Origin: Salinispira pacifica
GTDB lineage: Bacteria > Spirochaetota > Spirochaetia > DSM-27196 > Salinispiraceae
Reading direction: 5' to 3'
NCBI RefSeq assembly: GCF_000507245.1
Contig: NC_023035.1
Location: 3,267,570 to 3,331,569, forward strand
Length of the DNA stretch: 64,000 bases
Shown here: piece by piece, positions 7,712-61,147 of the stretch
Layout of the letters: each line of letters opens with the position of its first letter
Numbering within the stretch: the stretch's first letter is position 1
Translations under genes and position numbers: made by a program
Notes under the pieces: model-generated
Seen by the model: only the letters and a program-made list of their open reading frames with translations
The model's database searches: none
Told to the model about the DNA's origin: nothing

Positions 7712-9526
7712 TTATTTCCGGTACAGGTATTCGGAGATACCAATTGCACCATAGCCGTTGATGGGCTGGGGAAATACGTTACCCAGGTCCGCATCGTAGG
7801 CAGACATCAGCAGGGGATTGTATGTGAACACCCAGGGAAGGTTTTCAAGCCATTCGCGCTGGATCTTTTCCCAACCTGATTTTCTCTGTGCTTCATCGGT
7901 GGTCTCGTTCGCCTCTTTCCATGCTTCATCAACCCGGGCTTCCCAGTCACGACGGGGGCTTTCCTGGTTGGGTTCGATCATGTGGAGGTTACCATATGAG
8001 GGATACACGTTTGCGCCGCTGATGGGGTCAACAGAACCGGTAAGACCGATGAGGATCATGTCCCAGTCGTAGGTTGCTACCAGCTGGTTAACCAGTTCGT
8101 TGAAGTCCACAGGGCGGGGAGTGATCTGAATTCCCACGTTTGCAGCTTCCTGTGCGAACGCAGTGATAATATCTTCCCGTACTCGATTACCTGAGTTGGT
8201 AGCCAGGTTGAGTGCGATGGGGTTGCCTTCGGGGTCTTCCCTCACACCGTCACCGTCACGGTCGATGTAATCGATGCTGTCCAAAAGTTCCGCAGCAGCA
8301 ATGGGGTCATACTTGAGTGCAGCTTCATCGGCTCCTTCCCAGTAATAGGGGCTGAACCGGGGAACGAAGCTGTACTGAGGATATCCGAAACCGAATGCGA
8401 TGTTATTGATGTAAGTCTGGCGGTCAACAAGGTGAGCCATGGCTTCCCGGAAACTCTGATTGCTCAGCCAGGTCAGCTTGGGCTCGGTGAGTCCCGCATC
8501 GCCGTCGTTTTCCGGACCGTCTTCGTCGGGATTCTGGTTGAAAGTAATGAAGTTGGTGCTGGTTGAAGCTCCCACTTCATACATTTCAAAACCGAGGTTT
8601 TCCTTTTCTTCCACAAGAACGGAGTAGTCTTCACCCCGGACTGCGTACACATCCACGGTGCCCGCAAGGAACTGCTGGAGCATGGTGTCGGTGTCGGGAG
8701 TGAACAGGAAGGTAATCTGCTCAAGGTAGGGCAGCTGTGTACCTTCGGCATCGGTCTTGTAATAGTATGGGTTGGGCTCGAAAGATATGCGCTGGTTGGC
8801 GATATATTCCGAGATCACCCAGGGACCTGAAGAAGGAATGGTGGTGGGATCCGCATCAATACCCCAGAGGTTGTTGAATGCTTCAATACCGTTTTCTTCA
8901 ATCAGGGGTTCTACAATGTGTTTGGGAACCGCAGAACTATTGGCGATGTTCAGCAGACCCGCATACACTTCGACTGCAGAAATCTGCAGGGTTCTTTCGT
9001 CCAGTGCAACCCATTCGGTGAGTTCGCCGCCCACGGTATAGGAGTCCCGGGTGGAAGTCTGTACGCCTTCATCGTAAATAATGTTGTTGATGGTGTACTC
9101 GAAATCTTCCGCAGTAATGGGTTCGCCGTCGGACCAGAAAATGTCGTCACGAAGAGTAAGGGTCAGGACTTTCTCGTCGTCAGAGATTTCCCAGCTCTCT
9201 GCAAGAGCGGGCGCCCATTCCAGAGTATGCTGATCACGCTGAACCAGAGCATCGGAGATCATATAGTCGGTAATGTCGGTGGAGCTGGTTTCTTCGGCAA
9301 GCACGGGGTTGAAGGACTTGGGTCCTGATCCCAGCTGACCGAGCACAAGTTCGCCGCCCTTCTGGCCGACTTCCCAACCGGAATTCCGGTTAATAACAGT
9401 AAGACCGGGGGCAACCGCTTCCGCAGTTTCCTCGACCTGTGCTTCTTCCGCTTCTCCGCCGCAGCTAACCAGTACCAGACTGAATGCTGCTGCAAGAATC
9501 AGAAGTAAGACAAGAAGCTTATTCAT
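7712..9526 (-). CDS. oppA: Solute-binding lipoprotein, family 5 (OppA-like)
   Basis: 604 residues. Signal peptide with lipobox LVSC (Cys22), then an acidic linker, then the SBP_bac_5 fold. Visible landmarks include PALAESWEISDDEKVLTLTL, DGEPITAEDFEYT and EAMAHLVDRQTYINNIAFG. Mature protein would be anchored to a membrane outer face and deliver peptides or oligosaccharides to OppBC. It is the first gene of the minus-strand operon and has a strong ribosome binding site (AAGGAGGAAATTC just before the ATG). A terminator-like attenuator follows. The acidic, Glu-rich start of the mature part is a linker of low complexity. Confidence 0.93.
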   Translation of the reverse strand: MNKLLVLLLILAAAFSLVLVSCGGEAEEAQVEETAEAVAPGLTVINRNSGWEVGQKGGELVLGQLGSGPKSFNPVLAEETSSTDITDYMISDALVQRDQHTLEWAPALAESWEISDDEKVLTLTLRDDIFWSDGEPITAEDFEYTINNIIYDEGVQTSTRDSYTVGGELTEWVALDERTLQISAVEVYAGLLNIANSSAVPKHIVEPLIEENGIEAFNNLWGIDADPTTIPSSGPWVISEYIANQRISFEPNPYYYKTDAEGTQLPYLEQITFLFTPDTDTMLQQFLAGTVDVYAVRGEDYSVLVEEKENLGFEMYEVGASTSTNFITFNQNPDEDGPENDGDAGLTEPKLTWLSNQSFREAMAHLVDRQTYINNIAFGFGYPQYSFVPRFSPYYWEGADEAALKYDPIAAAELLDSIDYIDRDGDGVREDPEGNPIALNLATNSGNRVREDIITAFAQEAANVGIQITPRPVDFNELVNQLVATYDWDMILIGLTGSVDPISGANVYPSYGNLHMIEPNQESPRRDWEARVDEAWKEANETTDEAQRKSGWEKIQREWLENLPWVFTYNPLLMSAYDADLGNVFPQPINGYGAIGISEYLYRK

Positions 9527-9749
9527 GAATTTCCTCCTTAGAATAGAAAAGATAGCCTCATAGCTAAATTAGCATAGGTCTTGAAAGTGAGCAATAATTA
9601 TAGGGCAGAATATTTCAGAAATGTTGGAATACAATTTTCGAGCTACATAAATGTAGTTTTTAAAAACAGGGGTTTTCTGCACCGGGATCCTGGTATTCAG
9701 ATCCCGAATATGATGAGGAGAAATGGTTCTTCGGCAGACCGGATGGTCC

Positions 9750-10817
9750 TCAGCGAATTCGGCGGAAATGGGGAGAATTCTGCCGGAGCCGTTCAGCCGC
9801 CGCCCCCAGAAGCCACAGACCAACCGCCCCGCCGTACAGGGCCATGGGAATGAAACTGATCTCGAATACGTGTTCCCATCCCCTGGGCACCGAATACACC
9901 CAGATCAGCGCAGCCAGCCCGGCCGCGCCAATCAGCCATTGTACCACAGGACGGAGCGTCCAGGTATGCATATATGTGATAAGAAACATGAAAAGAAATC
10001 CGAAAAAGAACAGCGGCCAGGCATCCAGGTTTTTATACAGACTGATCAGCGTACCGTGCACCACCACGAAGGACTCCAGAACCACCACCCAGCTTCGCCG
10101 CTTGTGTGCACGGCTTCCGAAAACATTCATTTGAATAAACAGCAGGAACATGTACACAAACCCGCTCATCAGTCCCCAGTTCCCCTCCATGGGATGAAAC
10201 CAGAACGTATATACCAGTGCCCAGGCAATAAACGGTCCGTGCCAGTTTCGAAAAACCCGGTGAAGGGAAGCAGGTACATGCTGCCAGCGGCCGAAGAACA
10301 ATCCCCTGCGGGGCATCTCCATGACCAGAATAAGAACCAGCATCACAATAACCGAGCCCTGACTGGTCCAGATGGGCACATCCTGGGCAAGTCCGTCATA
10401 CCATAGATGAGTCTGCAGCAGATGCAGAGCCACAAAGAATACATTCACCACCGTCATCCACAGCTGATGCTTCCCGGCCATGGTGCTTCCGGGATTGCTG
10501 TAGGGAGCATCAACCGGGGGCTCCCGTTCCCCTGAAGCAACCGCCCGGGTTTTTTCCCTGCGGGCTGCAAAGAAAATGCCCCATACAAGAATCTGGTGGA
10601 GCAGATATCCGCTCCATACGGCGATCCGGCCGGCCGCACCCGGCTCATCCAGCTGCCAGTAGTACCAGCTTGATCCCTGATCCTCGGGCAGCGGATAAAA
10701 CTCCGCAGCGAGTCGGGGCGAAAAGAGTACCGTCACCACAGATATCAGAATAAACGCCGCTGCGGAAATTAAAATAAGCGTTTTCACAGAAAGGCCTTGA
10801 GTATTCTTGTTTTTCAC
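9750..10817 (-). CDS. Polytopic membrane protein with conserved-looking histidines, function unknown
   Basis: 355 residues with about eight hydrophobic helices. Several histidines lie in or beside membrane segments (FFVALHLLQTHLWYDG, FRNWHGPFIAWALVYTFWFHP, SFVVVHGTLISLY), an arrangement reminiscent of cytochrome b-type or ferric-reductase-like membrane domains. That likeness is only suggestive. It is flanked by the Opp operon and by a divergently read prenyltransferase gene. If the latter makes menaquinone, a redox role would fit, but nothing in the sequence proves it. About 220 bases without a gene separate it from the binding-protein gene. Confidence 0.65.
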   Translation of the reverse strand: MKNKNTQGLSVKTLILISAAAFILISVVTVLFSPRLAAEFYPLPEDQGSSWYYWQLDEPGAAGRIAVWSGYLLHQILVWGIFFAARREKTRAVASGEREPPVDAPYSNPGSTMAGKHQLWMTVVNVFFVALHLLQTHLWYDGLAQDVPIWTSQGSVIVMLVLILVMEMPRRGLFFGRWQHVPASLHRVFRNWHGPFIAWALVYTFWFHPMEGNWGLMSGFVYMFLLFIQMNVFGSRAHKRRSWVVVLESFVVVHGTLISLYKNLDAWPLFFFGFLFMFLITYMHTWTLRPVVQWLIGAAGLAALIWVYSVPRGWEHVFEISFIPMALYGGAVGLWLLGAAAERLRQNSPHFRRIR

Positions 10818-49012: not shown

Positions 49013-49267
49013 ATGCTTGAACTCAATCTTCCTGCCCATGCAGGCTATGAGGATATGATAACACGGGCCGACGCATCAGGCCTTCAGATCAGTGTTATCC
49101 GGGATGCAACCCTGGAAGGTCCGATTCTCCGTGACGAAGTAGTATTTGTACGGGGACGGGGGGAAATTTACCGGGAGCTTGACCGTCTATCCAATATCGA
49201 AACCGGGGAACCCGGAAGCGGTCCGGAGGATCTCAGGGAAGAAACAACTCTTCTTGACCGGAACTGA
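49013..49267 (+). CDS. Small hypothetical protein (84 residues)
   Basis: GGAAGGAGATATAT precedes the ATG, a strong ribosome binding site. Soluble, acidic, with a predicted beta-alpha N-terminal half (LQISVIRDATLEG) and a disordered-looking C-terminus (ETGEPGSGPEDLREE). Its end overlaps the convergent kinase gene by 35 bases. No family recognised. Confidence 0.65.
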   Translation: MLELNLPAHAGYEDMITRADASGLQISVIRDATLEGPILRDEVVFVRGRGEIYRELDRLSNIETGEPGSGPEDLREETTLLDRN

Positions 49268-49877
49268 GAGCACGGATGACCCGTTCGCTTACTCTGTCGA
49301 TGTCCGACGGATTTGAGCGCACATCTATTCTGTTCATATCCAGACTCAGGACGGGACAGTAGCTCCAGTTCCGTATCCATTCATCATACAGCTCATTCAG
49401 CTGTTCAAGATACGAAGCCGGTATCTCTTTTTCAAACTCACGCCCTCTCAGGGCGATCCGCTTTTTCAGTGTGGGCACCGATGCTTCCAGATACACAATC
49501 AGATCCGGTGCGCCCAAGAGCTCAACTATCAGCTCATAAAATTTCCAGTAGGTATGGAAATCCCTGTCGTCTATGTACCCCTGCCGTGCCAGGTTCCTGG
49601 CAAAAATATTGGCATCTTCATACACAGAACGGTCCTGGACCACCGAACCGCTGTAATGCTGCAGCCGCCTGTGCATCTCCAGACGGTCTGCCAGGAAAAA
49701 CATCTGGGAATGATACGCCCATGCGGACATATCAGCATAAAAATCTTTCAGATAGGGGTTCTCCCCCACCGGCTCATAATATGCCTTCCAGTTCAATTTC
49801 CGGGAAAGGAGCTCCACCAGAGTGCTTTTCCCCGCACCGATATTTCCTGCAACTACAATGTATTGTTTTTTTTCCAT
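49233..49877 (-). CDS. Deoxynucleoside kinase (dGK/dAK/dCK family)
   Basis: 214 residues, normal size. P-loop GNIGAGKS (about 11-18), substrate region YYEPVGENPYL, the DRS motif (VVQDRSVYED, about 79-88) and the lid arginines in LKKRIALRGREFE are present. It phosphorylates deoxynucleosides for nucleotide salvage in the cytoplasm; which base is preferred cannot be told by eye. Thirty bases separate it from the regulator gene on the same strand. Confidence 0.9.
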   Translation of the reverse strand: MEKKQYIVVAGNIGAGKSTLVELLSRKLNWKAYYEPVGENPYLKDFYADMSAWAYHSQMFFLADRLEMHRRLQHYSGSVVQDRSVYEDANIFARNLARQGYIDDRDFHTYWKFYELIVELLGAPDLIVYLEASVPTLKKRIALRGREFEKEIPASYLEQLNELYDEWIRNWSYCPVLSLDMNRIDVRSNPSDIDRVSERVIRALSSGQEELFLP

Positions 49878-49907: not shown

Positions 49908-50891
49908 TTACAGAAGCTTATCCAGCATTGAGACGGCCTCCACGCCTCGCTGGGCGAAGGCATCGGCATTGATCTTTTGCCACAACCCCTGTTCGTGGGC
50001 AAACGCCTGACCGCCCACCAGTATAAGGGGTTTTTTGGTCTCGCTGGAACTCTTCAGGGCCGATATGAGCATTTCTGCGGAATGAAGATTGTACGGCATG
50101 GTGACCGACAGTCCGACCACATCCGGGGTGAAGCTTTTAATTGCCTCGGCAGCCTCGGGACCGGGAAGATAGGTCCCCAGGTACATCACATCCCAGCCTT
50201 CCATGTACAGATAGTCGCAGACCATCATCAGGCCGATACCGTGCATCTCCCCGTTCACCACAACTCCCAGAAACCGCTTGTTTCTGGAGGGCTTGCGTTT
50301 CATGTAGCCCCGGAGCAGACCCATGCAGGACATAATGCTTTGGGAGATGCTGTGTTCCTGATGGATGGCCAGTTTGCCCTCGGCCCACAGCTCACCTGAG
50401 CGGTAGAGTACCGGTTCAAGAATATCCCGGTAAATGGCGCTCACAGGAAGGCCGAGGTAGGCAATTTCATTTATGCGGTTGATGGCCACCACGGGTTTCC
50501 CGTTGGCCGCAAGATCGATGTACTGTTTCACTTCATACGACGGATCCACGTGCTTTGCGGTCTGATACATTTCCAGGGGAGGATTGACGCCCCGGATATC
50601 AGGATCCGATTCAAGGTAGCGGCCTCCGCCTTCCCCTGAATTGCCGAAACTGCTGATGGTACGGTTATCCGCATGAACCCGTGTGCTCAGCCCGTCATCC
50701 CGTCCCAGAAGCTCGTCTACGCTCACCTCAAGAACTTCCGCGATCCTCAGAAGAGATTCGGTATCGGGACTGCGGTTGCCCTGCTCGTAGTTGGCAATGG
50801 CCGTCTGCCCGATATCCAGAGCTTCGCCCAATTGCCGCTGGGTCATTCCCCGGCGCTTTCGTAATGTTTTCAGGTTTTCTGCCAGTCCCAT
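49908..50891 (-). CDS. XRE-type regulator with CarH-like B12-binding sensor
   Basis: 327 residues. N-terminal XRE HTH (about 5-62; MTQRQLGEALDIGQTAIANYEQG). A linker is followed by a helical cap domain (about 110-205) with W169-x9-E179-H180, the Wx9EH signature of light-sensing CarH/LitR proteins. The cobalamin domain (about 205-327) has E215-x-H217-x-x-G220, whose His binds cobalt, then VVGLSVTMP and LILVGGQAF. Known CarH regulators use a MerR-type HTH; here an XRE domain replaces it. It may therefore be a B12-dependent light or cobalamin switch. No obvious carotenoid gene is nearby. Confidence 0.88.
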   Translation of the reverse strand: MGLAENLKTLRKRRGMTQRQLGEALDIGQTAIANYEQGNRSPDTESLLRIAEVLEVSVDELLGRDDGLSTRVHADNRTISSFGNSGEGGGRYLESDPDIRGVNPPLEMYQTAKHVDPSYEVKQYIDLAANGKPVVAINRINEIAYLGLPVSAIYRDILEPVLYRSGELWAEGKLAIHQEHSISQSIMSCMGLLRGYMKRKPSRNKRFLGVVVNGEMHGIGLMMVCDYLYMEGWDVMYLGTYLPGPEAAEAIKSFTPDVVGLSVTMPYNLHSAEMLISALKSSSETKKPLILVGGQAFAHEQGLWQKINADAFAQRGVEAVSMLDKLL

Positions 50892-51074
50892 TCTTGTAGT
50901 ATAGATAAAATATCACGAAGTGTGAATATAATTCCGATCTCTGTTTGTATTTCTTTTCATCTCTTCCATGGGTAGAAAAACCACTATATACTTATGCGGG
51001 GAATATATTTCATGGCATTAGGCATTTTAAAACAACACAATAGCAAGAGCTGAAACAAGCTGAAGGAATTACCA

Positions 51075-51722
51075 ATGAGCATTCGCTTCCGCCTATATCT
51101 TCAATCATTTTTGGCCGTCCTGGGCATGCTGGCAGCAGTGGCCATCTTTCTATTTATGCAGAGTTCAGTGGGACGCATTCAAAACCTTATCAGCAGCGGA
51201 ACCTCTGCTGTGAACAGCTGGAACTCCTTCTCCCACGCAACCAAGGATGTACTTTACCGCCCGGGTGTTATCGCCAAACAGGCCGCCGTCTGGATAACCG
51301 AACGGGAAAACGGCATAGAAGCCATGAACAGATTTCTGTCCAACCCCATTTTTTCCCGCACCAGCGAGCAGACCCGCCGGGATTCCCAACAGCTTGCGGG
51401 CATGCTGGAGGAGATCAGCTCCCGGTCGGAGGAGATTATCGGGCTGATGAACTCCTACGAAGAAGCAATCAACGCAGACCGGGATATCGGGGGCGGATTG
51501 AGCTATAAACTGGGGTATTATCAGGCATCCGGAGACCTGAACCGGGTATTCCAAACCGGACGGATGCTGGAGCGTTCCATGCTCAACCTCATTCCCATGA
51601 TGCAGAACCTTGAAGGGGGACTCAGCACCCTGTTTTCCACCCTTGAAGAAGAGGTGCTTCGTACCGGAAGCCGGCTTCAGGCCATCGCAATGGCAATGGC
51701 GGGGCATTCGCCGCCGTGGTGA
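51075..51722 (+). pseudogene. Methyl-accepting chemotaxis protein, N-terminal part (frameshift in TM2)
   Basis: 215 residues as read. TM1 (about 10-28) is followed by a mainly helical periplasmic sensor of about 170 residues. The second membrane helix begins as [10 protein letters not shown] and breaks after GCGGGG (about 51697-51702), ending in HSPPW. One extra G would continue as [19 protein letters not shown], a perfect TM2. The start has only a modest ribosome binding site (GAAGGAATTACC). Confidence 0.88.
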
Positions 51723-52903
51723 TCATACTGTCCATCCTCATCGTCAGGAGCATTCTTAAGCTGATACGGCTGCTTGAGGCAGGAGTCCGACGGGCAGGAA
51801 ACCTCGATCTCACCGTTTCCTTTCCGGAAAGCAGGGATGAACTGGGACAGCTGGGCAGGCAGCTCAATGTTCTGTTCGCAAAGCTTCACGGCATAGTCGG
51901 CGAACTGAAACGCTTCTCCGCAGGCAGTCTGGAGAGCGACGGGACTCTAAACGAGTCGGTACAATCCATGACCGGGCTTCTCAACACCAACCGGGAACAC
52001 ATGCACAACCTGGAATTTTCCGCATCCAACCTGGGAGAACAGGTACAGCAGGTTCAGGAACAGACACAGGCCATTGAACACAGCGTGGAATCCATTAACC
52101 GTTTCATGGAAGAGCAAAGCGCTTCCGCCGACGAGAGCTCAGCGGCCATCGAGGAGATGGAAGCCAGCCTCCGAAGAATTGCAGAGATCATCAGCGCCAG
52201 GCACGGCGAACTTCTGGAGCTGGTGGAAAGCACCCGGAGCAGCCAGGAACAGGGAAAACTGAGCACCGAAACCATCAGCTCGGTGGCGGAAGATATCGAC
52301 GGACTGAACGAGATACTAACCGTTATTACCGGCGTTGCCAGCCAGACATCCTTATTATCCATGAACGCCGCCATCGAAAGCGCCCACGCAGGAGATGCAG
52401 GACGGGGATTCGCCGTGGTTGCAGAGGAAATCCGGAAACTCGCCGAAACCACCACCCAGCGTTCCAAAGAAATCAGGGAAAACCTGAAAAACATCATCGG
52501 TAAAATCCAGGGTGCCGAGGAAGCCAGCCTGAAAAATTTCGAATATCTTGAGCAGTCGGCCCAGCGACTGGTGCATTTCGCCCAGTCCATGGAAGAAATT
52601 CAGCAGTCCACCTCGGAAGTATCAACCGGAAGCCGTCAGGTGCTCACTGCAGCCAATGAGCTGAGCAACTCGGTAAACAGCAGCCGGGAAAGCAGCCGGA
52701 GCATTCAGAAATCCATCGGGGAGATCGGCCGGAACATCGGTACAGTCCAGGAGTTCAGCTCCCGGCTCAATGGAAGAGTAGGCGATATGCTGGATCATTC
52801 AGGGAAAATTCTGGAGCAGGTAAATCAGGTTGAAAATATCCAGCAGCACAACAGCAAGCAGATCCGCTCGCTGGGCTCAATGGTGGACGACTTCACCACC
52901 TGA
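51716..52903 (+). pseudogene. Methyl-accepting chemotaxis protein, HAMP and signalling part
   Basis: Continues the chemoreceptor: rest of TM2, HAMP domain ([23 protein letters not shown]) and the MCP signalling domain with hairpin tip [41 protein letters not shown]. Methylation-type Gln/Glu helices flank it. No own ribosome binding site was found, so this is the second half of one gene of about 610 residues. The sensed ligand is unknown. Confidence 0.88.
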
Positions 52904-53026: not shown

Positions 53027-54619
53027 TTAGAGTCCCGGCGTTCTCTTTGCCGCATACATTCGTTCATCGGCGATCTGAAGGATCTGCTGGAGATCCAGAT
53101 CTCCTTCGGCATTCACGCCCCCGAGACTGAGCTGAACGGTCAAGCCCGGAGAAATATCTTCCCAAAGCTCTCTCTCAACCGCTTCATGAATCTTGGAAAT
53201 AACGGTGCTCAGATTCTTCTCATCCGCCCCGGGCAGCAGAAGAATAAACTCGTCGCCGCCGTATCGGATCACCAGATCCCCCTTCCGCAGGCAATCAGTA
53301 AGAAGAGCGGCAATGCGCACAAGCACCTCATCCCCGGCCTGATGGGAATGGGTGTCGTTGATCATTTTGAATTGATCCACATCTGCAAACACCACCCCCA
53401 AATCCTCTCCGCTTCGGGTAATCCGGGCAAGCTCTCCGGGCATGTGGGCCATGAGATAGCGTCGGTTCAGCAATCCGGTAAGGGGATCGTGGATGAGCTG
53501 TTCCTCCAGCTGTCGGTTACTTTCTTCAAGCCGCGCCTTCAGATCCCTGAGCTCGGTGTTCTGCAGCCGATACAGCTCCCGCTCCAGCTTTACCCGTTCC
53601 AGATCCAGCAGCGCCAGAGCTTTGGTGAGATTGTTGTCTCCGATGCGTACCCCCAGTTCTTTTTGAAGCTTGAGGGCCCTGCGCTCATACATCAAGGCGT
53701 TTTCCAGATCACCCCGGTATTCATAAAACCGGCCCATCAGTTCATAGCAGCGAATGGTATTTTGAATAGGCTGCTGTTCCTCAAGCCGTTCTTCCGCCTG
53801 AAAAAGGGGGCCTTCAGCCTCATGGTACCGCCCGTCATCCATCAGCAGGGTTGCATAGTTCAGAAGGATCTCTTCCAGCCAGCTCTTAACCGGCAGATCG
53901 GACATCAGCTCCAGGGCTTGCCGGTACATCTCTTCCGACTCTTCAGTACGCCCTTCGTTGTTGAGTACATCTGCATACTTGGCAATGCTGTGGGCTTCAT
54001 AGGATGGATTCGCGCAGGTCCGGAATATTTCCCTGGATTCATCCAGATATGCACAGCCCTCTTCGGCTGATCCGTTCATACCCAGAAGCCGCCCCAGGTT
54101 GGAAAGGATAATCCCCAGGTTCATCAGGTCCGCGTCTTCCAGACCCTCGTATGACGGATCATCTTCCGTCTGCATCACTTTTCTGGCGGAGTCATAGTAT
54201 TCCACCGCTTTGGCTATCTGCCCGATTTCTTCATAGATTATTGCGGTGTTGTTCAACGCCGATGCCGCTCTCAGGGGCCATTCCTCCCCGAACAGCTGAT
54301 ATGCTTTGCTGCAGTGCTCTATTGCCAGCTGATACACCGAAAGCTGACCGTAGAGCACCCCCTGGGTGAGGTGCGCCTCCGCCTCTTCCCGGGTATTCCC
54401 CTGGCTCACTGCGGCATGTTCGCCTTTCCGGGCATACTCAAGACCGGTTGCATGATCCTGAGTCAGGAACGCGCATTTGGCGCACATCCGGTATGCCTCC
54501 GCCGGCCCGCCGGGAAGTTCACTGCAGTCTGTTTTTTCAACACACTGCTGAAAAAGGTTCAAAGCTTCATCAAATTTTCCCTGCTCAAGGGCCGCCTGGG
54601 CATCCTGTAGTACAGACAT
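53027..54619 (-). CDS. TPR-repeat diguanylate cyclase (GGDEF)
   Basis: 530 residues from the ATG at 54619 (an in-frame ATG 33 bases earlier would add a short hydrophobic tail). About seven TPR-like helical pairs (10-340; AEAYRMCAKCAFL, ASALNNTAIIYEEIGQIAKAVEYYDSA) are followed by a coiled coil (about 345-380) and the GGDEF domain. The active site is intact (RYGGDEFILLLP) and an RxxD inhibitory site (RKGD) lies five residues before it. It should make cyclic di-GMP in the cytoplasm under control of protein contacts by the TPRs. No membrane helix. Confidence 0.93.
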   Translation of the reverse strand: MSVLQDAQAALEQGKFDEALNLFQQCVEKTDCSELPGGPAEAYRMCAKCAFLTQDHATGLEYARKGEHAAVSQGNTREEAEAHLTQGVLYGQLSVYQLAIEHCSKAYQLFGEEWPLRAASALNNTAIIYEEIGQIAKAVEYYDSARKVMQTEDDPSYEGLEDADLMNLGIILSNLGRLLGMNGSAEEGCAYLDESREIFRTCANPSYEAHSIAKYADVLNNEGRTEESEEMYRQALELMSDLPVKSWLEEILLNYATLLMDDGRYHEAEGPLFQAEERLEEQQPIQNTIRCYELMGRFYEYRGDLENALMYERRALKLQKELGVRIGDNNLTKALALLDLERVKLERELYRLQNTELRDLKARLEESNRQLEEQLIHDPLTGLLNRRYLMAHMPGELARITRSGEDLGVVFADVDQFKMINDTHSHQAGDEVLVRIAALLTDCLRKGDLVIRYGGDEFILLLPGADEKNLSTVISKIHEAVERELWEDISPGLTVQLSLGGVNAEGDLDLQQILQIADERMYAAKRTPGL

Positions 54620-54742
54620 AACCACAGTATATATATTCAGGCAAAAAATCACAAAACGTGAAGAATAATTTTTTCATAAAACAATCAGATACGCCTTTTT
54701 TCCGGTGAACAATGTGGAGCACATTCCCCAAGGAGCCCGCAT

Positions 54743-57700
54743 ATGCACCGAAAATCACTTTCCGTCTTCTCAAAATCCGCCCCGGTTGTACCGGTTGTGA
54801 TACCTGCGCTGCTGTTCATCCTGATCAGCGGACTCTCCCTGCATGGTGAAACCAAAACCTCGAACGTAAACAAACAGTATGTGAAAAAGGATCAATTCAG
54901 AATTATCACCCCATCTGCGCCCAAAACCTTTCAGATATATCATACCTATACCTACGACAAGGTGACCCGTGAATACACCTACACCACCTGGTCGTATAAT
55001 CCGTATGATCAAAGCTATGAAGTTCAAGGAAGCCACGACACCAGGGCCGCCGCTGTCAGTGCAAAACCCAGCGGGGGGAAAATCACCGTATCCAGCTCCG
55101 TTGTAGATAAGAAAACCAATCTCAAAGGTACGGAGGTGGTCAGCAGCTGCAGCATAGATGGGGCTTCAATTTCTGCAGATGATATCAGCGATTACGCTGC
55201 AGCGAAGCTGAAAGAATCGGATGATGCCCTGAAGGACGGTGAACTGCAGGATATTATTAATGATGATAACGCCGGGCAAAGCGAAGAGGCCTGCGATCCC
55301 GAAACCGCAGAGAGCGGCCACGACGCCTCGGCAGAACAAGCCGCTGAAGACGCCGAGGAGGAGGAAAAAAGCTACTTTGCCCGGGCCTTCGGCGATCCGG
55401 TGCAGCTGTCCAGCGGCTCCCTCTTGCTGACCGAAGAAGACCTTCGCATCCCTCTGCCCGGGGATGCTCCGCCGTTCAGCTTGAGCAGAACCTACCGCAG
55501 CGAATCGCTGCACACAGGGGCGCAGGGGCGCAACTGGTTCGGCTCCCTGGAAGCCCGGCTTATCCGCTGCAACTCCCTCAGCTTCTGGACATCCGGAGAT
55601 TTATGCCGGCAGGAAATTGAACGTCTCCGGCAGGTGCTGCTCGATCTGGATACCGCAGCGGAAAATGAAAAAACCCGTCTTGAAGGTCTGCTTCCGGATC
55701 TTGTGGAAAGTGCCGAGGATCTTGAAACGGCCGCACTGGAGTACCTGTCAAAGTCCAAAAAGGCGAATTCCGCCGGACAGACCGGCTACGGCAAACTGTC
55801 CCGGCGATGCAGCGCCCGGGCGACGCTACTCCGGGAGCGTATTTCCCTCATCCAGGAACGCATAGAACTGCTGTACGGTACTCTGCTGCCGGCGGAACGG
55901 CAGAGAATTGATCTGCAGATTTCCAGCCTGAAGGAAATGTCTGCTGCATCGGATCAATACAGCATGCGCCGACAGCTTCTGGAAAAGCAAACCCGGGAGC
56001 TGTACACCATCGCCGGTCCGCCGGCGGGAGGCTCCGGCGCATCGGAGATTCAGAGCATCGGGAAACAGGCCGGACTGAATACCATCCTGTGGATATCTCC
56101 CTCAGGAGGCCTTCGCACATTTCACCGCATTGATGACGGAGACCCCCGGGAATCTCCGGTTTCCTCCGACGGCGGAGGAAGACACGGCGGTCTTCCCAAA
56201 GACGGTATTTTTCCTGCATCTTCCCTGAGTTACCGCTGTACATCCCTGCCCCGTCATCGTCTGGTACTCCGGGAGGACGGCAGCATGTGCATCCGTCAGC
56301 CGGGAAATATTCTCAGCGAGTACGATTCACTGGGCCGTTTCAGGGGCAAATACCGGCTGCTGCCTCCCGGTTCACCCATGCTTCTCTATGAGTACCGCTA
56401 TGCTCCCGGCGACGGGAAACCCGGGTATCTGCCGGAGAGCATTATGCTGTACGGCGGGCGGCAGCTGAACCTTCAGTGGATGAATCAGGGTGCACGCCGG
56501 CTGTTGAAGAAACTGCACTTCAGCTTTCCGGGAATGGAAAAGAAGGAGATTATCTATTCATACTCCCCGGACGGATATCTCCAAAGCGTTGTCTGCCACG
56601 ACGGCAGAAGAAAAGAATACAGCTGGAACAGCAGACTCGTATCGAGCCGGGTGAAACATCCCGGCGACTCTCCGGATATTCATAAAACCTACAGCTACGA
56701 TAAAGACGGCCGGGTGACAGCGGTCCGGGACAGCCGGGGCTATTCAGAAGAATTCAGCTATTTTCTTCGAACCGGCTCCCGGGGCAACAGCGTAGCCCGG
56801 GCCCGCTACAGCTATGACCCGGGACCGGGACAGCCCGGCGGTAATTCCCCCGCCGTCCCCGGTTTCCCGGAAGATACCGGGCGCTACGGAGAACCGGGAA
56901 CCCTGGAGTATGAGTTCGATAATCACGGCCGCATCTCCCTCTCCAGAAAATACGACAGCCGGGGAACACTGAAGGAGATCCGAAGAAAAGAATATTATCC
57001 GGACACCCCCGGTTTACTGCACCGGGAGCTGATCACCGGCTTTCATTCCCCCCCCGCTGATCCGGACATCCCGGCGGGCAGCCTGCCGGACACCGGACTG
57101 CAGCCGCCGGAAATTCATGAGGAAGTGATCTATGAATATTTCACCGACCCACATCGCAGGGGACTTCTGAAAAGCATCACCCGGAACTCCGATGATCCCC
57201 GCCGTCCCCCGGGTACATTCAGCTTTCAGTATAATGATCAGGGTTACCTCACCCAAAGCATGGATCCCGACGGAGTGTCAGTTCGCTACAGCTACAACTC
57301 TGCGGGGCTGCTTCGGGAAATCCTGAAAAATGACGGAGGCCGCCAACGCTACGATTACGACAGCCGGGGGCTCTGTACCGGGTTCAGCGATGAAGAAGGC
57401 AACAGCTGGCAGTATGCCCGGGATCAGTACGGGAACCGCAGCCGGCTTACCGATCCTCTGGGCAGCAGCTATACGTTTCAATTCGATGCCCTTGGTCGCT
57501 GCAATGCCGCAGAAGGCCCGCTGGGTGAAGATCTCATGGCCCCCGACTTCTACCGGGAGATTGTACCACCGCCGGATCCTCGCAGTCTGGTTCCCGATGA
57601 CACTTCTGCCGCCGTGGCGGACAGAATCCGCAGGTACACCCCCGCCGGCAGAACTGCCGAGCTTCTGCCATCCCTCTCCTGCCCGGACACCCCGGTCTCA

Positions 57701-60700
57701 ATCGTCCGGGATGAATGCGGTAGAGCGGAGCGCATCGATTATCCTGGAGATGCAGACAGTCTGATACATTACGACCGATGCGGCAGAATCATCCGCTTCA
57801 CCCACCGCAACGGAGGTACCAGCCGCTATGAATATGACCCCTGCGGCAGGATCATCTCTGTTACCGGTCCCCTGGGAGCCCGCAGCGAGTACCACCGGGA
57901 TGCCCGGGGACGGGTAATCCGCATCATAGAAAACATCTGCAGCCAATGGCCCCGGGGACTCACCCGGAAGGACCTTCTCTATGACCAGCTGGGACAGCTG
58001 ACAGAGATAAGCTACCCCGACGGAAGCAGCGAACAGTTCACCTATGATGAACAGGGCAGAATGAAATGCCGAAGGGACCGATGGGGCAGAATGCACCGCA
58101 TCACCAGAATTGAAGCCGACCATGGCGAAACTGCCCCGGAAGCCAATCCCGGGAAAACAGGCGGCAGTCAGACCCCGGCGGCCCGGGGTGAAACCAGTAT
58201 CAGTTATGAATCTCCGGGAACATATCGCCGGGAAATCTACGATTCCCGTCTCAGGCTCAAGGCAGTCCTTGCCGGTCCGGATTCCCGGAAGCTTCACCTG
58301 CTCACCGACCTTCTCTATTCGCCTGACGGCATGAGCCGGGCAAGCAGGCCCGGGGGGCTGAACTCCTGGCGAACCCATGCAGACATCGATAAGGGCATTC
58401 GTACAATCCGGGACCCCGACGGTATGGAACAGATCAGCCGATTCGATACTGCCGGAAGAGTTATCGGGCTGCAGCGGGGGCAGATGAGAAGAGATTACGC
58501 CAGGAACGCCGACGGGCGGATTGTCCGGGACACCGGCGGGTATCCTTCCGGAGCCGCTGGTTCACCGAGCTCAGGAGGACGGGAGATTGCGTATCAGCTG
58601 GATTATCTGGGGCGGATTGTCCGGGAGGAGCGCTCCCCGGGCGGGATAAGCAGCTACACCTACCGGGGAAACCGCCTCATCCGCTCAGCTCACAGCGACG
58701 GCCGGGAACTGAACTTCAGCTGGAATCCCGCAGGACAGCTCCTGCAGGCGGAAGATGCCGGAGGCGGACTCCTCACATCCATATCCTACGATCCGGCGGG
58801 AAGAATAACCAACGCCCGGGCACGCTGCGAGTCTCTGGAATTTAAATGGGACCGGGAAGACCGTCTCCGGGAAACTGCATCTCAAGGCTCCGGCCTGAGC
58901 CACAGGCTGGAATGGGGTTCTGCCGACCTGCTGAAATCCATCCGGCTCTCCACCGGAGACCAAAGTGCTCAGCCGCTGGGGCTGCCTTCATGTGAATATC
59001 AATACGATGAAGCAGACAGGATCAGCGGCATCCGTCTCAGTGCGGCAGATTCCGGCGGTGACATCCAGCTTCAGTTCCGCCGGGACGGCCTGGGCAGAAT
59101 AACATCTGTATGGACGAGCCGGAGGAACGGAAGTTCTGCCCCCGAGCTGCTGCAGCGCTTCAGCTACACCAGGGACGGCTGCATGGAATCCGACCTGTTG
59201 TACTCCAGCAAGGATCCGCACCATCCTTCAGGTGGACATATCTACAGCTATACCCCCGGCAGAAAGCTGCGTTTCAGCATGAATGCAGAAAGCGGGCTGG
59301 GAAGCTACCAGTACGGATCATCAGGTAAGCTTATCTCCGCCCTCACACCGCCCAATACCCTGTCCAAGCCGAACGGCGGAACCTCAGGAGACTCCGGTCA
59401 ACAGGAGCTGGTGTGGGCGGGAATCGACCCGGATCATATAGATTCCCTGAGTGAACTCTGGGATTCCCGGGATCTGCCCCGGCGCTTTTCGGCATACCAG
59501 CAGCTGGAAAAAATGAACCTGGCTCCCCGGGCCTCAGGCATTGAACTGGACGGCTTCGACCGTATGGTCCGCTGGGAGCTTGACGGGAAGATATTCCAGG
59601 CCGCATACAACAGCTTGTCCCGTCTCTCCCGGCTGGAAGTGGAGAGCAGCCTCGGTCAGACCGGCATCAGATACGAATACGATGCCCTGAACCGTCTCTG
59701 CCTCAGGGAGGAACTTTCCCGCAGGATCTCCCCGGACCGGGAACGCCGCCCCATGGAAGACGAAACCCTCACACGAACCCGCTTCACCTACATGGGCACA
59801 AGCAGCCGGGTACTGGCAACGCTACACTACAGTTCGCACCATACATATCTGCAGCCCACGGGGCCCGGTACGGAACCCCGGGATGGGGAAAACGCTCCCA
59901 TGGTTGCGGAAAAACCCGAAGGGGACGGCTACCGCAGCAATTCCCCCGGTTCTGCTTCCGGGCAGACTTCCGGCTCCACACCAAGAGCCTTCCCCGACGG
60001 CCCGCAAGAGATCTCAGATGACACCCGTCAGCTCACACCCCGGGCAATATGCATGTACCACTGGGCGGACGGAACAATTGTTGCCCTGAGCATTGCCCGC
60101 AGCGGCCGGCCGGGTGTAAGCAGCACTCCCGGCGGGGAGGACGGCATGCACACTCCCGCAGACCGGGGCTTCCGGGCTTCCGGCCCCCGGACCGAGGGAG
60201 GGGACGCAGCGGCTACACAGTCGTTGAGTCATTATTATCTTCCGGACAGCCGGAATGGAAGCAAACAGGCCGTGGTGGACTTACAAAACCTCCACGCCTC
60301 TATGATACACTATGAAGTGTACGGAAAACCCCATTACGGCAGCAGCGAAAACGGCAATAATCTCCTGGAGGAACTCAGCAGCCTGGGCGTCTGCGTGCCC
60401 GGCTTCGCCGGCCGGGGCTACAACCCGTCCTCGGGGCTCATCAACTTCGGATACCGCTACTACCTGCCCTGCGCCCGGCGCTTTCTCACCCCCGACCCCC
60501 TCCGCAGCGGCTACAGCTGGACCGCCTATTGCGACGACGACCCGCTAAACTTCACAGACAGCCTGGGCCTTCAGAAGCAGGGCTTCGTTCATTATGATGT
60601 TGAGGGGGAGAGGTTTTGGGGATTCACGTGTGACGATGAAGAAGACAATCTGGATGATGTAAATTTTTTCGATGTGTACACCACAAATAACTTACGGGAC

Positions 60701-61147
60701 AGGGAATATCCTACCGAAACAGGAGATCTTACAGACGACCCGGTAACAACCATTTTAGAAAGTAAGGAAAGAGGAAATGCGTATTATCCGGAACACTTCC
60801 CTCGGGGGGGCTTCAATGTAAACAAAGTTATCGAAACACATGATCCGGATTACGGCCCTTATTTTATTTCAACCGATGCAACAGCTGAGGTTGAGACCTA
60901 TCAATATGAGGCTGATTTGAAAAAGTGGACTCCCCGGGTGGATGAAGGTGGAAACCTGCTTACCGAAACCGATTCGGGCTATGGCTTTCATGCCGGAGGT
61001 TCAGTAAATACCTACAATGACGCCAATAATCCGGACGCTACCACCAAGGGCTGTGGAAGACATTCAACCAGCGATAACATTATGCTGGCGAAGCTGTTCA
61101 AGGAAGTTCTTGATGATGGAGGAACCATAGAAGGATGTGCAAAATGA
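54743..61147 (+). CDS. Exported Rhs/YD-repeat protein with putative L,D-transpeptidase-fold toxin tip
   Basis: 2134 residues; AAGGAG stands eight bases before the ATG. Sec signal (about 1-36), acidic linker (about 185-210), DUF6531-like start (FGDPVQLSSGSLLLTEEDLR), a coiled-coil insertion (about 285-425), YD repeats forming the Rhs shell (about 500-1870) and the Rhs core (GLINFGYRYYLPCARRFLTPDPLR, about 1892-1942). The last 190 residues are AT-richer and unrelated. They hold FHAGG (about 2082) and TKGCGRH (about 2102), which recall the His and Cys of YkuD/Tlde1-like peptidoglycan enzymes. The stop overlaps the first immunity-like gene by 13 bases. It is probably a secreted or surface antibacterial toxin. 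Confidence 0.92.
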   Translation: MHRKSLSVFSKSAPVVPVVIPALLFILISGLSLHGETKTSNVNKQYVKKDQFRIITPSAPKTFQIYHTYTYDKVTREYTYTTWSYNPYDQSYEVQGSHDTRAAAVSAKPSGGKITVSSSVVDKKTNLKGTEVVSSCSIDGASISADDISDYAAAKLKESDDALKDGELQDIINDDNAGQSEEACDPETAESGHDASAEQAAEDAEEEEKSYFARAFGDPVQLSSGSLLLTEEDLRIPLPGDAPPFSLSRTYRSESLHTGAQGRNWFGSLEARLIRCNSLSFWTSGDLCRQEIERLRQVLLDLDTAAENEKTRLEGLLPDLVESAEDLETAALEYLSKSKKANSAGQTGYGKLSRRCSARATLLRERISLIQERIELLYGTLLPAERQRIDLQISSLKEMSAASDQYSMRRQLLEKQTRELYTIAGPPAGGSGASEIQSIGKQAGLNTILWISPSGGLRTFHRIDDGDPRESPVSSDGGGRHGGLPKDGIFPASSLSYRCTSLPRHRLVLREDGSMCIRQPGNILSEYDSLGRFRGKYRLLPPGSPMLLYEYRYAPGDGKPGYLPESIMLYGGRQLNLQWMNQGARRLLKKLHFSFPGMEKKEIIYSYSPDGYLQSVVCHDGRRKEYSWNSRLVSSRVKHPGDSPDIHKTYSYDKDGRVTAVRDSRGYSEEFSYFLRTGSRGNSVARARYSYDPGPGQPGGNSPAVPGFPEDTGRYGEPGTLEYEFDNHGRISLSRKYDSRGTLKEIRRKEYYPDTPGLLHRELITGFHSPPADPDIPAGSLPDTGLQPPEIHEEVIYEYFTDPHRRGLLKSITRNSDDPRRPPGTFSFQYNDQGYLTQSMDPDGVSVRYSYNSAGLLREILKNDGGRQRYDYDSRGLCTGFSDEEGNSWQYARDQYGNRSRLTDPLGSSYTFQFDALGRCNAAEGPLGEDLMAPDFYREIVPPPDPRSLVPDDTSAAVADRIRRYTPAGRTAELLPSLSCPDTPVSIVRDECGRAERIDYPGDADSLIHYDRCGRIIRFTHRNGGTSRYEYDPCGRIISVTGPLGARSEYHRDARGRVIRIIENICSQWPRGLTRKDLLYDQLGQLTEISYPDGSSEQFTYDEQGRMKCRRDRWGRMHRITRIEADHGETAPEANPGKTGGSQTPAARGETSISYESPGTYRREIYDSRLRLKAVLAGPDSRKLHLLTDLLYSPDGMSRASRPGGLNSWRTHADIDKGIRTIRDPDGMEQISRFDTAGRVIGLQRGQMRRDYARNADGRIVRDTGGYPSGAAGSPSSGGREIAYQLDYLGRIVREERSPGGISSYTYRGNRLIRSAHSDGRELNFSWNPAGQLLQAEDAGGGLLTSISYDPAGRITNARARCESLEFKWDREDRLRETASQGSGLSHRLEWGSADLLKSIRLSTGDQSAQPLGLPSCEYQYDEADRISGIRLSAADSGGDIQLQFRRDGLGRITSVWTSRRNGSSAPELLQRFSYTRDGCMESDLLYSSKDPHHPSGGHIYSYTPGRKLRFSMNAESGLGSYQYGSSGKLISALTPPNTLSKPNGGTSGDSGQQELVWAGIDPDHIDSLSELWDSRDLPRRFSAYQQLEKMNLAPRASGIELDGFDRMVRWELDGKIFQAAYNSLSRLSRLEVESSLGQTGIRYEYDALNRLCLREELSRRISPDRERRPMEDETLTRTRFTYMGTSSRVLATLHYSSHHTYLQPTGPGTEPRDGENAPMVAEKPEGDGYRSNSPGSASGQTSGSTPRAFPDGPQEISDDTRQLTPRAICMYHWADGTIVALSIARSGRPGVSSTPGGEDGMHTPADRGFRASGPRTEGGDAAATQSLSHYYLPDSRNGSKQAVVDLQNLHASMIHYEVYGKPHYGSSENGNNLLEELSSLGVCVPGFAGRGYNPSSGLINFGYRYYLPCARRFLTPDPLRSGYSWTAYCDDDPLNFTDSLGLQKQGFVHYDVEGERFWGFTCDDEEDNLDDVNFFDVYTTNNLRDREYPTETGDLTDDPVTTILESKERGNAYYPEHFPRGGFNVNKVIETHDPDYGPYFISTDATAEVETYQYEADLKKWTPRVDEGGNLLTETDSGYGFHAGGSVNTYNDANNPDATTKGCGRHSTSDNIMLAKLFKEVLDDGGTIEGCAK
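61082..61143 (+). repeat. Toxin-tip 3' repeat, copy 1
   Basis: Codes for the last residues of the Rhs protein (MLAKLFKEVLDDGGTIEGC) and contains the ribosome binding site and ATG of the first exported paralogue. Near-identical copies are at 61973-62034 and 62934-62995. Confidence 0.9.

Follow-up and report, generated by a model that had tools for sequence, protein, structure and literature searches.

A predicted light-responsive cobalamin regulator with an XRE DNA-binding domain in Salinispira pacifica and its family in Spirochaetota and Clostridia

A gene on the minus strand of the window (the whole 64-kb stretch of Salinispira pacifica DNA analyzed here) encodes a protein in which a CarH-like cobalamin sensor is joined to an XRE-type DNA-binding domain. 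We consider it likely that this regulator is an autoregulated, adenosylcobalamin (AdoCbl)-dependent repressor that is released by light. Computation establishes its architecture, its light signature and the conservation of that signature, together with photoprotective gene neighborhoods and an operator-like motif.

The S. pacifica genome consists of one contig of 3,782,798 bp. Strain L21-RPul-D2, which lives in a hypersaline microbial mat, is fermentative and aerotolerant and makes an orange carotenoid-like pigment (PMC4511686). Its single phytoene synthase gene is followed by genes for a CrtI-like FAD protein, named phytoene desaturase in the genome paper (PMC4511686), and for a carotenoid biosynthesis protein (PF04240). 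The genome also holds two photolyase genes and two genes for PduO-type adenosyltransferases; given the latter, AdoCbl can be made in Salinispira.

Results

The ORF proposed by an earlier, sequence-only reading (49908–50891, −) was confirmed in coordinates and strand, and its 327-residue product was modeled with AlphaFold2 from an alignment of 46 proteins of the family (mean pLDDT 87.2). The XRE (HTH_3) domain spans residues 7–61 (50709–50873, −; PF01381) and scores 58.7 bits against a curated cut-off of 23, which makes the protein an XRE (Cro/CI) regulator. HTH_3/XRE families alone matched the HTH in Pfam, with no match to MerR, bearing out the earlier assignment of an XRE-type instead of a MerR-type domain. 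The closest solved HTH is that of the ICEBs1 Xre regulator 7t8i. A flexible linker follows (residues 68–103; 50583–50690, −), which is the one uncertain part of the model (pLDDT <50) and exceeds in length all other linkers of the family. The four-helix cap (residues 106–196; 50304–50576, −), assigned from PF02607 and the model helices, carries the GELW and EH motifs; Pfam B12-binding_2 matches it weakly at residues 137–193 (25.9 bits, cut-off 23). The cobalamin-binding Rossmann domain (CBD, residues 203–327; 49911–50285, −; PF02310) is matched by B12-binding at residues 207–319 with 62.3 bits (cut-off 32.1). All three domains that the sequence-only reading had suggested searching for, HTH_3, B12-binding_2 and B12-binding, are therefore found above their cut-offs. 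HTH, linker, cap and CBD fill the 327 residues, and no biliverdin-binding domain is seen by Pfam or in the model. The only other protein of the genome with a B12-binding_2-type cap is MetH.

Light-responsive cobalamin domains are marked by a signature of GxxW, EH, GxxH and GxxxP motifs (SignatureFinder, PMC11796333). All four are found in the window protein, as GELW (166–169), EH (179–180), GEMH (214–217) and GTYLP (239–243). The residue numbers given earlier for Trp169, Glu179, His180 and His217 are right, the W-x9-E-H spacing is exact, and the E-x-H-x-x-G motif holds His217. The Trp169 codon (50385–50387, −) is equivalent to Trp131 of TtCarH, the Glu179–His180 codons lie at 50352–50357 (−), and His217 (50241–50243, −), within GEMHGIG, is the predicted lower axial cobalt ligand. 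Ala170 (50382–50384, −) occupies the position of TtCarH His132, the bis-His ligand. The protein can be placed in the wider class defined by light-signature cobalamin domains, and would be expected to bind AdoCbl and to undergo photolysis. Domains and signature together support the earlier proposal that a CarH-like sensor is joined to an XRE HTH.

The solved structure closest in sequence is CtMerR (8jbs, E=2e-19; PDB). In fold (VIA-align), the sensor model matches photocobilins with Z 25–26 (8j2w 26.0), CtMerR 8jbs with Z 22.8 and TtCarH with Z 19.9, and among corrinoid folds it matches the methylamine corrinoid protein 3ezx with Z 22.5, MetH with about 21.5 and 7xcn with 18.9. The fold alone does not decide the sensor type, because 3ezx and MetH have the same fold; on sequence grounds, the Trp–Glu–His set is the feature that sets the sensor apart from these two. 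Of the NCBIfam models, MtgC scores 52.8 bits (cut-off 370), MtbC 49.5 (350) and TransRegCarH 42.1 (400). The sequence-only reading had considered that the cap might prove methyltransferase-like and devoid of Trp–Glu–His; the set is present, and MtgC stays at 52.8 against 370.

The window regulator is not a lone fusion but a member of a family. A search of relatives recovered full-length homologues in about 12 spirochaete genomes, and a wider search of 84,980 species with only two short patterns, one in the HTH and one around the axial His, yielded 80 loci, many of them from Clostridia. From Spirochaetota and Clostridia, 53 XRE-cap-CBD proteins were assembled, the gene calls of the relatives being mechanical ORFs. 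Gly166, Trp169, Glu179, His180, His217 and Gly239 are kept in all 53 proteins, and Pro243 in 50. Since the identity of the XRE fusions to the window protein is only about 25–41%, this residue pattern is not due to chance. Trp169, Glu179 and His180 lie outside the search patterns, so the conservation of these three is independent of the search. The residue after Trp169 is Glu in 41 of the 53 proteins, Ala in 4, Gln in 3, Met in 2, Asp in 2, Ser in 1 and His in none.

The tree built from the sensor domains separates the MerR-type CarHs from the XRE proteins by a weakly supported split (51/88), and a photocobilin-like clade is nested among the XRE proteins. The tree is weak at its base and includes a single methyltransferase row, so that it does not test the relation between the XRE proteins and methyltransferases; a single origin of the XRE fusion is neither shown nor excluded by it. 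The clade that includes Asgard archaeal light-signature proteins lies among the XRE sensors. Two proteins on MAG contigs from Lokiarchaeota (L104, 9551–10630) and Hermodarchaeota (L113, 3732–4787) carry the full light signature, the sensor being preceded by an N-terminal region of about 140 residues. In the similar proteins L097 and L043, which were scanned, this region has no Pfam match.

Upstream of the regulator genes of the family, the palindrome TANCACA-N3-TGTGNTA recurs and overlaps the −10 box of their own promoter. A search of the upstream regions for a common near-perfect dyad showed no shared repeat; the imperfect palindrome was spotted by eye in the output of the dyad search and then confirmed by EM. 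The EM motif reaches 19.5 bits, compared with a maximum of 9.4 over 40 dinucleotide-shuffled sets, and random starts recover the same motif. When each region was left out in turn, with similar sites also dropped, 44 of the 50 upstream regions beat their own shuffles. Matches above 14 number 73 around the XRE loci and 0 around control cobalamin proteins without XRE, a control that weighs less because its loci are higher in G+C (54% vs 44%).

At the promoter of the window regulator, a PWM built without the window scores 18.6 for the operator-like site TATTCACACTTCGTGATATTTTATC (50904–50928, −), which lies over the predicted −10 box. Its leave-one-out score is 17.5, against 5.7 at the 97.5th percentile of shuffles. 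The suggestion in the sequence-only reading that the regulator controls its own gene thus gains support as a prediction, the site having been found without the window's own copy. The sole other match above 9 in the 64-kb window (54640–54664, −; PWM 17.7) lies just upstream of the likely ATG (54619) of a gene for a TPR-GGDEF protein, a diguanylate cyclase (53027–54619, −; PF00990, TPR), which is a predicted target. Divergent to this gene and beside the second site is an Rhs/YD-repeat-like gene for 2134 aa (54743–61147).

The PWM scan of Salinispira covered the 64-kb window and selected genome regions; in 130 kb of reversed Salinispira sequence it gave no match above 9. The promoter of the crtB operon carries an operator-like site (PWM 16.3), whose half-site pattern ATTTCRNNNYGTGNTA, written after the matrix had already revealed this site, occurs once in the Salinispira genome, at crtB. 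A pair of sites (PWM 15.0 and 14.2) lies upstream of a sigma-70-family gene, and another match (14.6) between a gene for 688 aa and a divergent lipoprotein-like gene; these two places are less independent, since they had been selected by matches to a loose pattern. The sigma-70 pair is 32 bp apart (L124, 2489–2545; Salinispira C1, about 982788–982845), and the gene that follows it has regions 1.2, 2, 3 and 4. With such a target, the response to light could run as a cascade. The near-perfect palindrome AACACATAGTGTGTT (L125, 2530–2554) is flanked by the 688-aa gene, which has no Pfam match, and the lipoprotein-like gene. Predicted control of the carotenoid operon, the sigma-70-family gene and the TPR-GGDEF gene had been missed by the sequence-only reading.

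We relied on the PWM because the genome counts of the loose patterns CACRNNNYGTGNTA and TNNCACRNNNYGTGNT were not enriched over reversed controls. Where loose-pattern matches inside genes were checked, their PWM scores were at most 13.2. One such chance match falls in a large cas9-like gene (L139; Salinispira C1, 1089200–1093300). By PWM, both Salinispira photolyase promoters are without an operator-like site, as is the crtI promoter of L034, and the regulon thus differs from place to place. Among the relatives, the motif is found before genes for HMG-CoA synthase (L030) and UvdE (L056), before divergent crtI (L063, L065) and before divergent chemoreceptor genes (L051, L064, L071).

Genes for photoprotection are frequent neighbors of the family. 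A photolyase gene lies no more than five genes from the regulator in 7 of the 53 loci. The regulator is directly adjoined by phytoene synthase in 5 loci and by a divergent phytoene desaturase gene in 2, with a desaturase gene close by in one more locus, and it is followed by a gene for the UV endonuclease UvdE in 1. After the 53 proteins were merged at 60% identity into 34 groups, a photolyase, phytoene synthase/desaturase or UvdE neighbor is present in 11 (P about 4e-11 if the chance per locus is taken as 2% and about 5e-7 if it is taken as 5%, these background rates being an estimate from Salinispira gene counts).

In the window, a deoxynucleoside kinase gene (49233–49877, −; PF01712) lies 30 bp downstream of the regulator and is probably co-transcribed with it. 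The sequence-only reading had suggested that the regulator might control an operon shared with this kinase; we dropped the kinase as a partner because, from the gene order, it is not seen as a neighbor in the nearest relatives. The link to the chemoreceptor, also raised there, holds up better, since a divergent chemoreceptor gene recurs as neighbor in 6 of the 53 loci, the window included. The chemoreceptor gene of the window (51075–52903, +; HAMP and MCPsignal by Pfam) has an apparent frameshift near 51716. It consists of two overlapping ORFs in different frames (51075–51722 and 51716–52903), which meet at the second membrane segment (51660–51740), and the split may reflect a frameshift, a pseudogene or a sequencing error.

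The top 25 Pfam families of 110 neighbor proteins include MCPsignal, MacB/FtsX exporters, GGDEF, EAL, photolyase and RND pumps. RND efflux pump genes adjoin or lie near the regulator in L037, L060, L079, L084, L088 and L093, and the shared promoter region has an operator-like site in L037, L060 and L079. DUF2177 and DUF1295 recur near the clostridial regulators and were considered as possible light-regulon genes. The LitR paper (PMC9758184) does not use these names. Both are among the singlet-oxygen-response genes of Chlamydomonas (PMC4067076), and heliorhodopsins have DUF2177 as a neighbor (PMC11109279). In L055, a gene divergent from the XRE regulator encodes a stand-alone cobalamin-domain protein (9126–9794, −) that lacks the Trp/Glu-His cap set, and the same arrangement is found in L059, L069, L075, L076 and L085 (relatives from Proteiniclasticum, Clostridium and Tissierellia). 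Operator-like sites lie between the two genes, and the stand-alone protein is possibly a co-regulator or an antirepressor.

Discussion

From CarH and from the position of the site, we infer AdoCbl binding, a light response, a change of oligomer, DNA binding and the sign of regulation. The protein would be a one-component regulator that holds AdoCbl between its Trp/Glu/His cap and the CBD as light sensor. In the dark, the AdoCbl-bound protein would assemble and its XRE domains would bind TANCACA-N3-TGTGNTA. Because the palindrome overlaps the −10 box, the promoter would be blocked in the dark, and it is this overlap that suggests repression, not activation. In light, the Co–C bond would be broken and the adenosyl group would leave; the assembly would then change, releasing the DNA and opening the promoter. 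The Salinispira targets would be the regulator's own gene, the crtB carotenoid operon, the sigma-70-family gene and the TPR-GGDEF gene, and carotenoid synthesis, repair, sigma factor and c-di-GMP/chemotaxis genes would then respond to light. Several observations weigh against this reading: the cap match in Pfam is weak (25.9 vs 23), none of the 53 proteins has an equivalent of His132, the two Salinispira photolyase promoters carry no operator-like site, and Salinispira is fermentative, whereas oxygen completes the CarH photoswitch.

The position of relatives beside pigment and DNA repair genes points to a widespread light-response system. A bolder reading, to which we give a little less than even credence, is that light regulons of anaerobic spirochaetes and clostridia are controlled by B12 photoreceptor repressors of a second class, which has an XRE domain, an operator of its own and a photoswitch independent of bis-His ligation. 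As part of the same joint claim, these regulons would comprise carotenoids, UV repair, chemoreceptors, c-di-GMP and a sigma factor, and a switch of this kind may work without oxygen.

The alternative that survives best, although we think it rather unlikely, is a combined light-and-oxygen (redox) sensor, a variant of the light-released repressor that may overlap it. Anoxic photolysis would leave Co(I)/Co(II), and release would be completed only by oxygen, so that carotenoids would be made when both signals coincide. This does not sit well with the presence of close relatives in genera of clostridia that are known to be strictly anaerobic, nor with the absence of His132 from the whole family. 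It would agree with the behavior of CarH, which integrates light and oxygen (PMC10442372), and with the induction of carotenoids in some spirochaetes only with oxygen, Salinispira itself being aerotolerant and living in a cyanobacterial mat (PMC4511686).

It is improbable that the regulator senses the AdoCbl level (coenzyme B12 status) instead of light, coupling cofactor supply to transcription. Such a sensor would need no other ligand pocket, and several relatives come from sediment or digester-type MAGs, which may be dark. However, no family for cobalamin synthesis or transport (uptake) is among the top 25 Pfam families of the 110 neighbor proteins. The neighbors and predicted targets include carotenoid genes, photolyases and UvdE and none of B12 metabolism, and no Rfam family, cobalamin riboswitches included, matches the window. 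Very improbable indeed is a methyltransferase-type corrinoid carrier turned regulator, responding to methylcobalamin or to a partner methyltransferase: the MtgC and MtbC models slightly outscore that of CarH, but both remain far under their cut-offs, Trp169 and Glu-His are invariant, the best PDB sequence match is the photoreceptor CtMerR, and photocobilins and CtMerR outrank 3ezx and 7xcn in fold, with 3ezx scoring almost the same as CtMerR and higher than TtCarH.

The light-released repressor, if true, would extend B12 light sensing to fermentative anaerobes, including clostridia, which are not usually regarded as light-responsive, and would reach spirochaetes whose carotenoids were put down to oxygen stress alone. 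With His132 lost in every member, the family would make a disputed point testable, namely whether B12 photoswitching can dispense with both bis-His ligation and oxygen. A convenient green-light gene switch for anaerobic hosts might also be built from a palindromic operator this compact and an HTH of the common XRE type.

Comparison with Known Systems

In the open-access literature, we found no published description of an XRE-type B12 light regulator. The 1561 signature proteins of the SignatureFinder set include generic 'HTH' fusions (PMC11796333), and some XRE members may be among them. The main text of that paper names neither Cro-type HTHs nor spirochaetes, and we found in it neither the XRE type, its operator and its targets by name nor any operator or regulon.

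Photocobilins (8j2w, 8j2y) are the best fold match of the sensor and have the same cap and CBD; they differ by an added biliverdin-binding domain. CarH and class I LitR proteins (Thermus, Myxococcus) share with the window protein a W-x9-EH cap, an E-x-H-x-x-G CBD and an N-terminal HTH. Their cap Trp, Glu and His and their axial His are present as W169, E179, H180 and H217. Carotenoid targets and autoregulation are predicted as a further likeness; at the level of sequence, carotenoid control is suggested by the operator-like site at crtB and by the crt genes beside relatives. Besides having its own palindromic operator-like site, the window protein carries an XRE domain in place of the MerR HTH, scores only 42.1 bits with the NCBIfam CarH model (cut-off 400) and lacks a His132 equivalent, and for these last three reasons we do not file it as CarH/LitR.

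The bis-His light state of TtCarH has His132 as its upper ligand (PMC10442372). One study found that tetramer dissociation needs this residue, H132A largely staying tetrameric in light (PMC10442372), whereas an earlier report had H132A still dissociating (via PMC10442372). CtMerR from Chloracidobacterium thermophilum (8jbs/8jbt), described as a MerR family protein, likewise has no His after the Trp (Arg in the alignment), and it responds to light experimentally, passing from tetramer to monomer (PMC11796333). Since CtMerR switches without that His, the loss of His132 is no argument against photoreception; it argues for a different switch after photolysis. The Salinispira regulator would work like CarH, yet it is no member of CarH/LitR.
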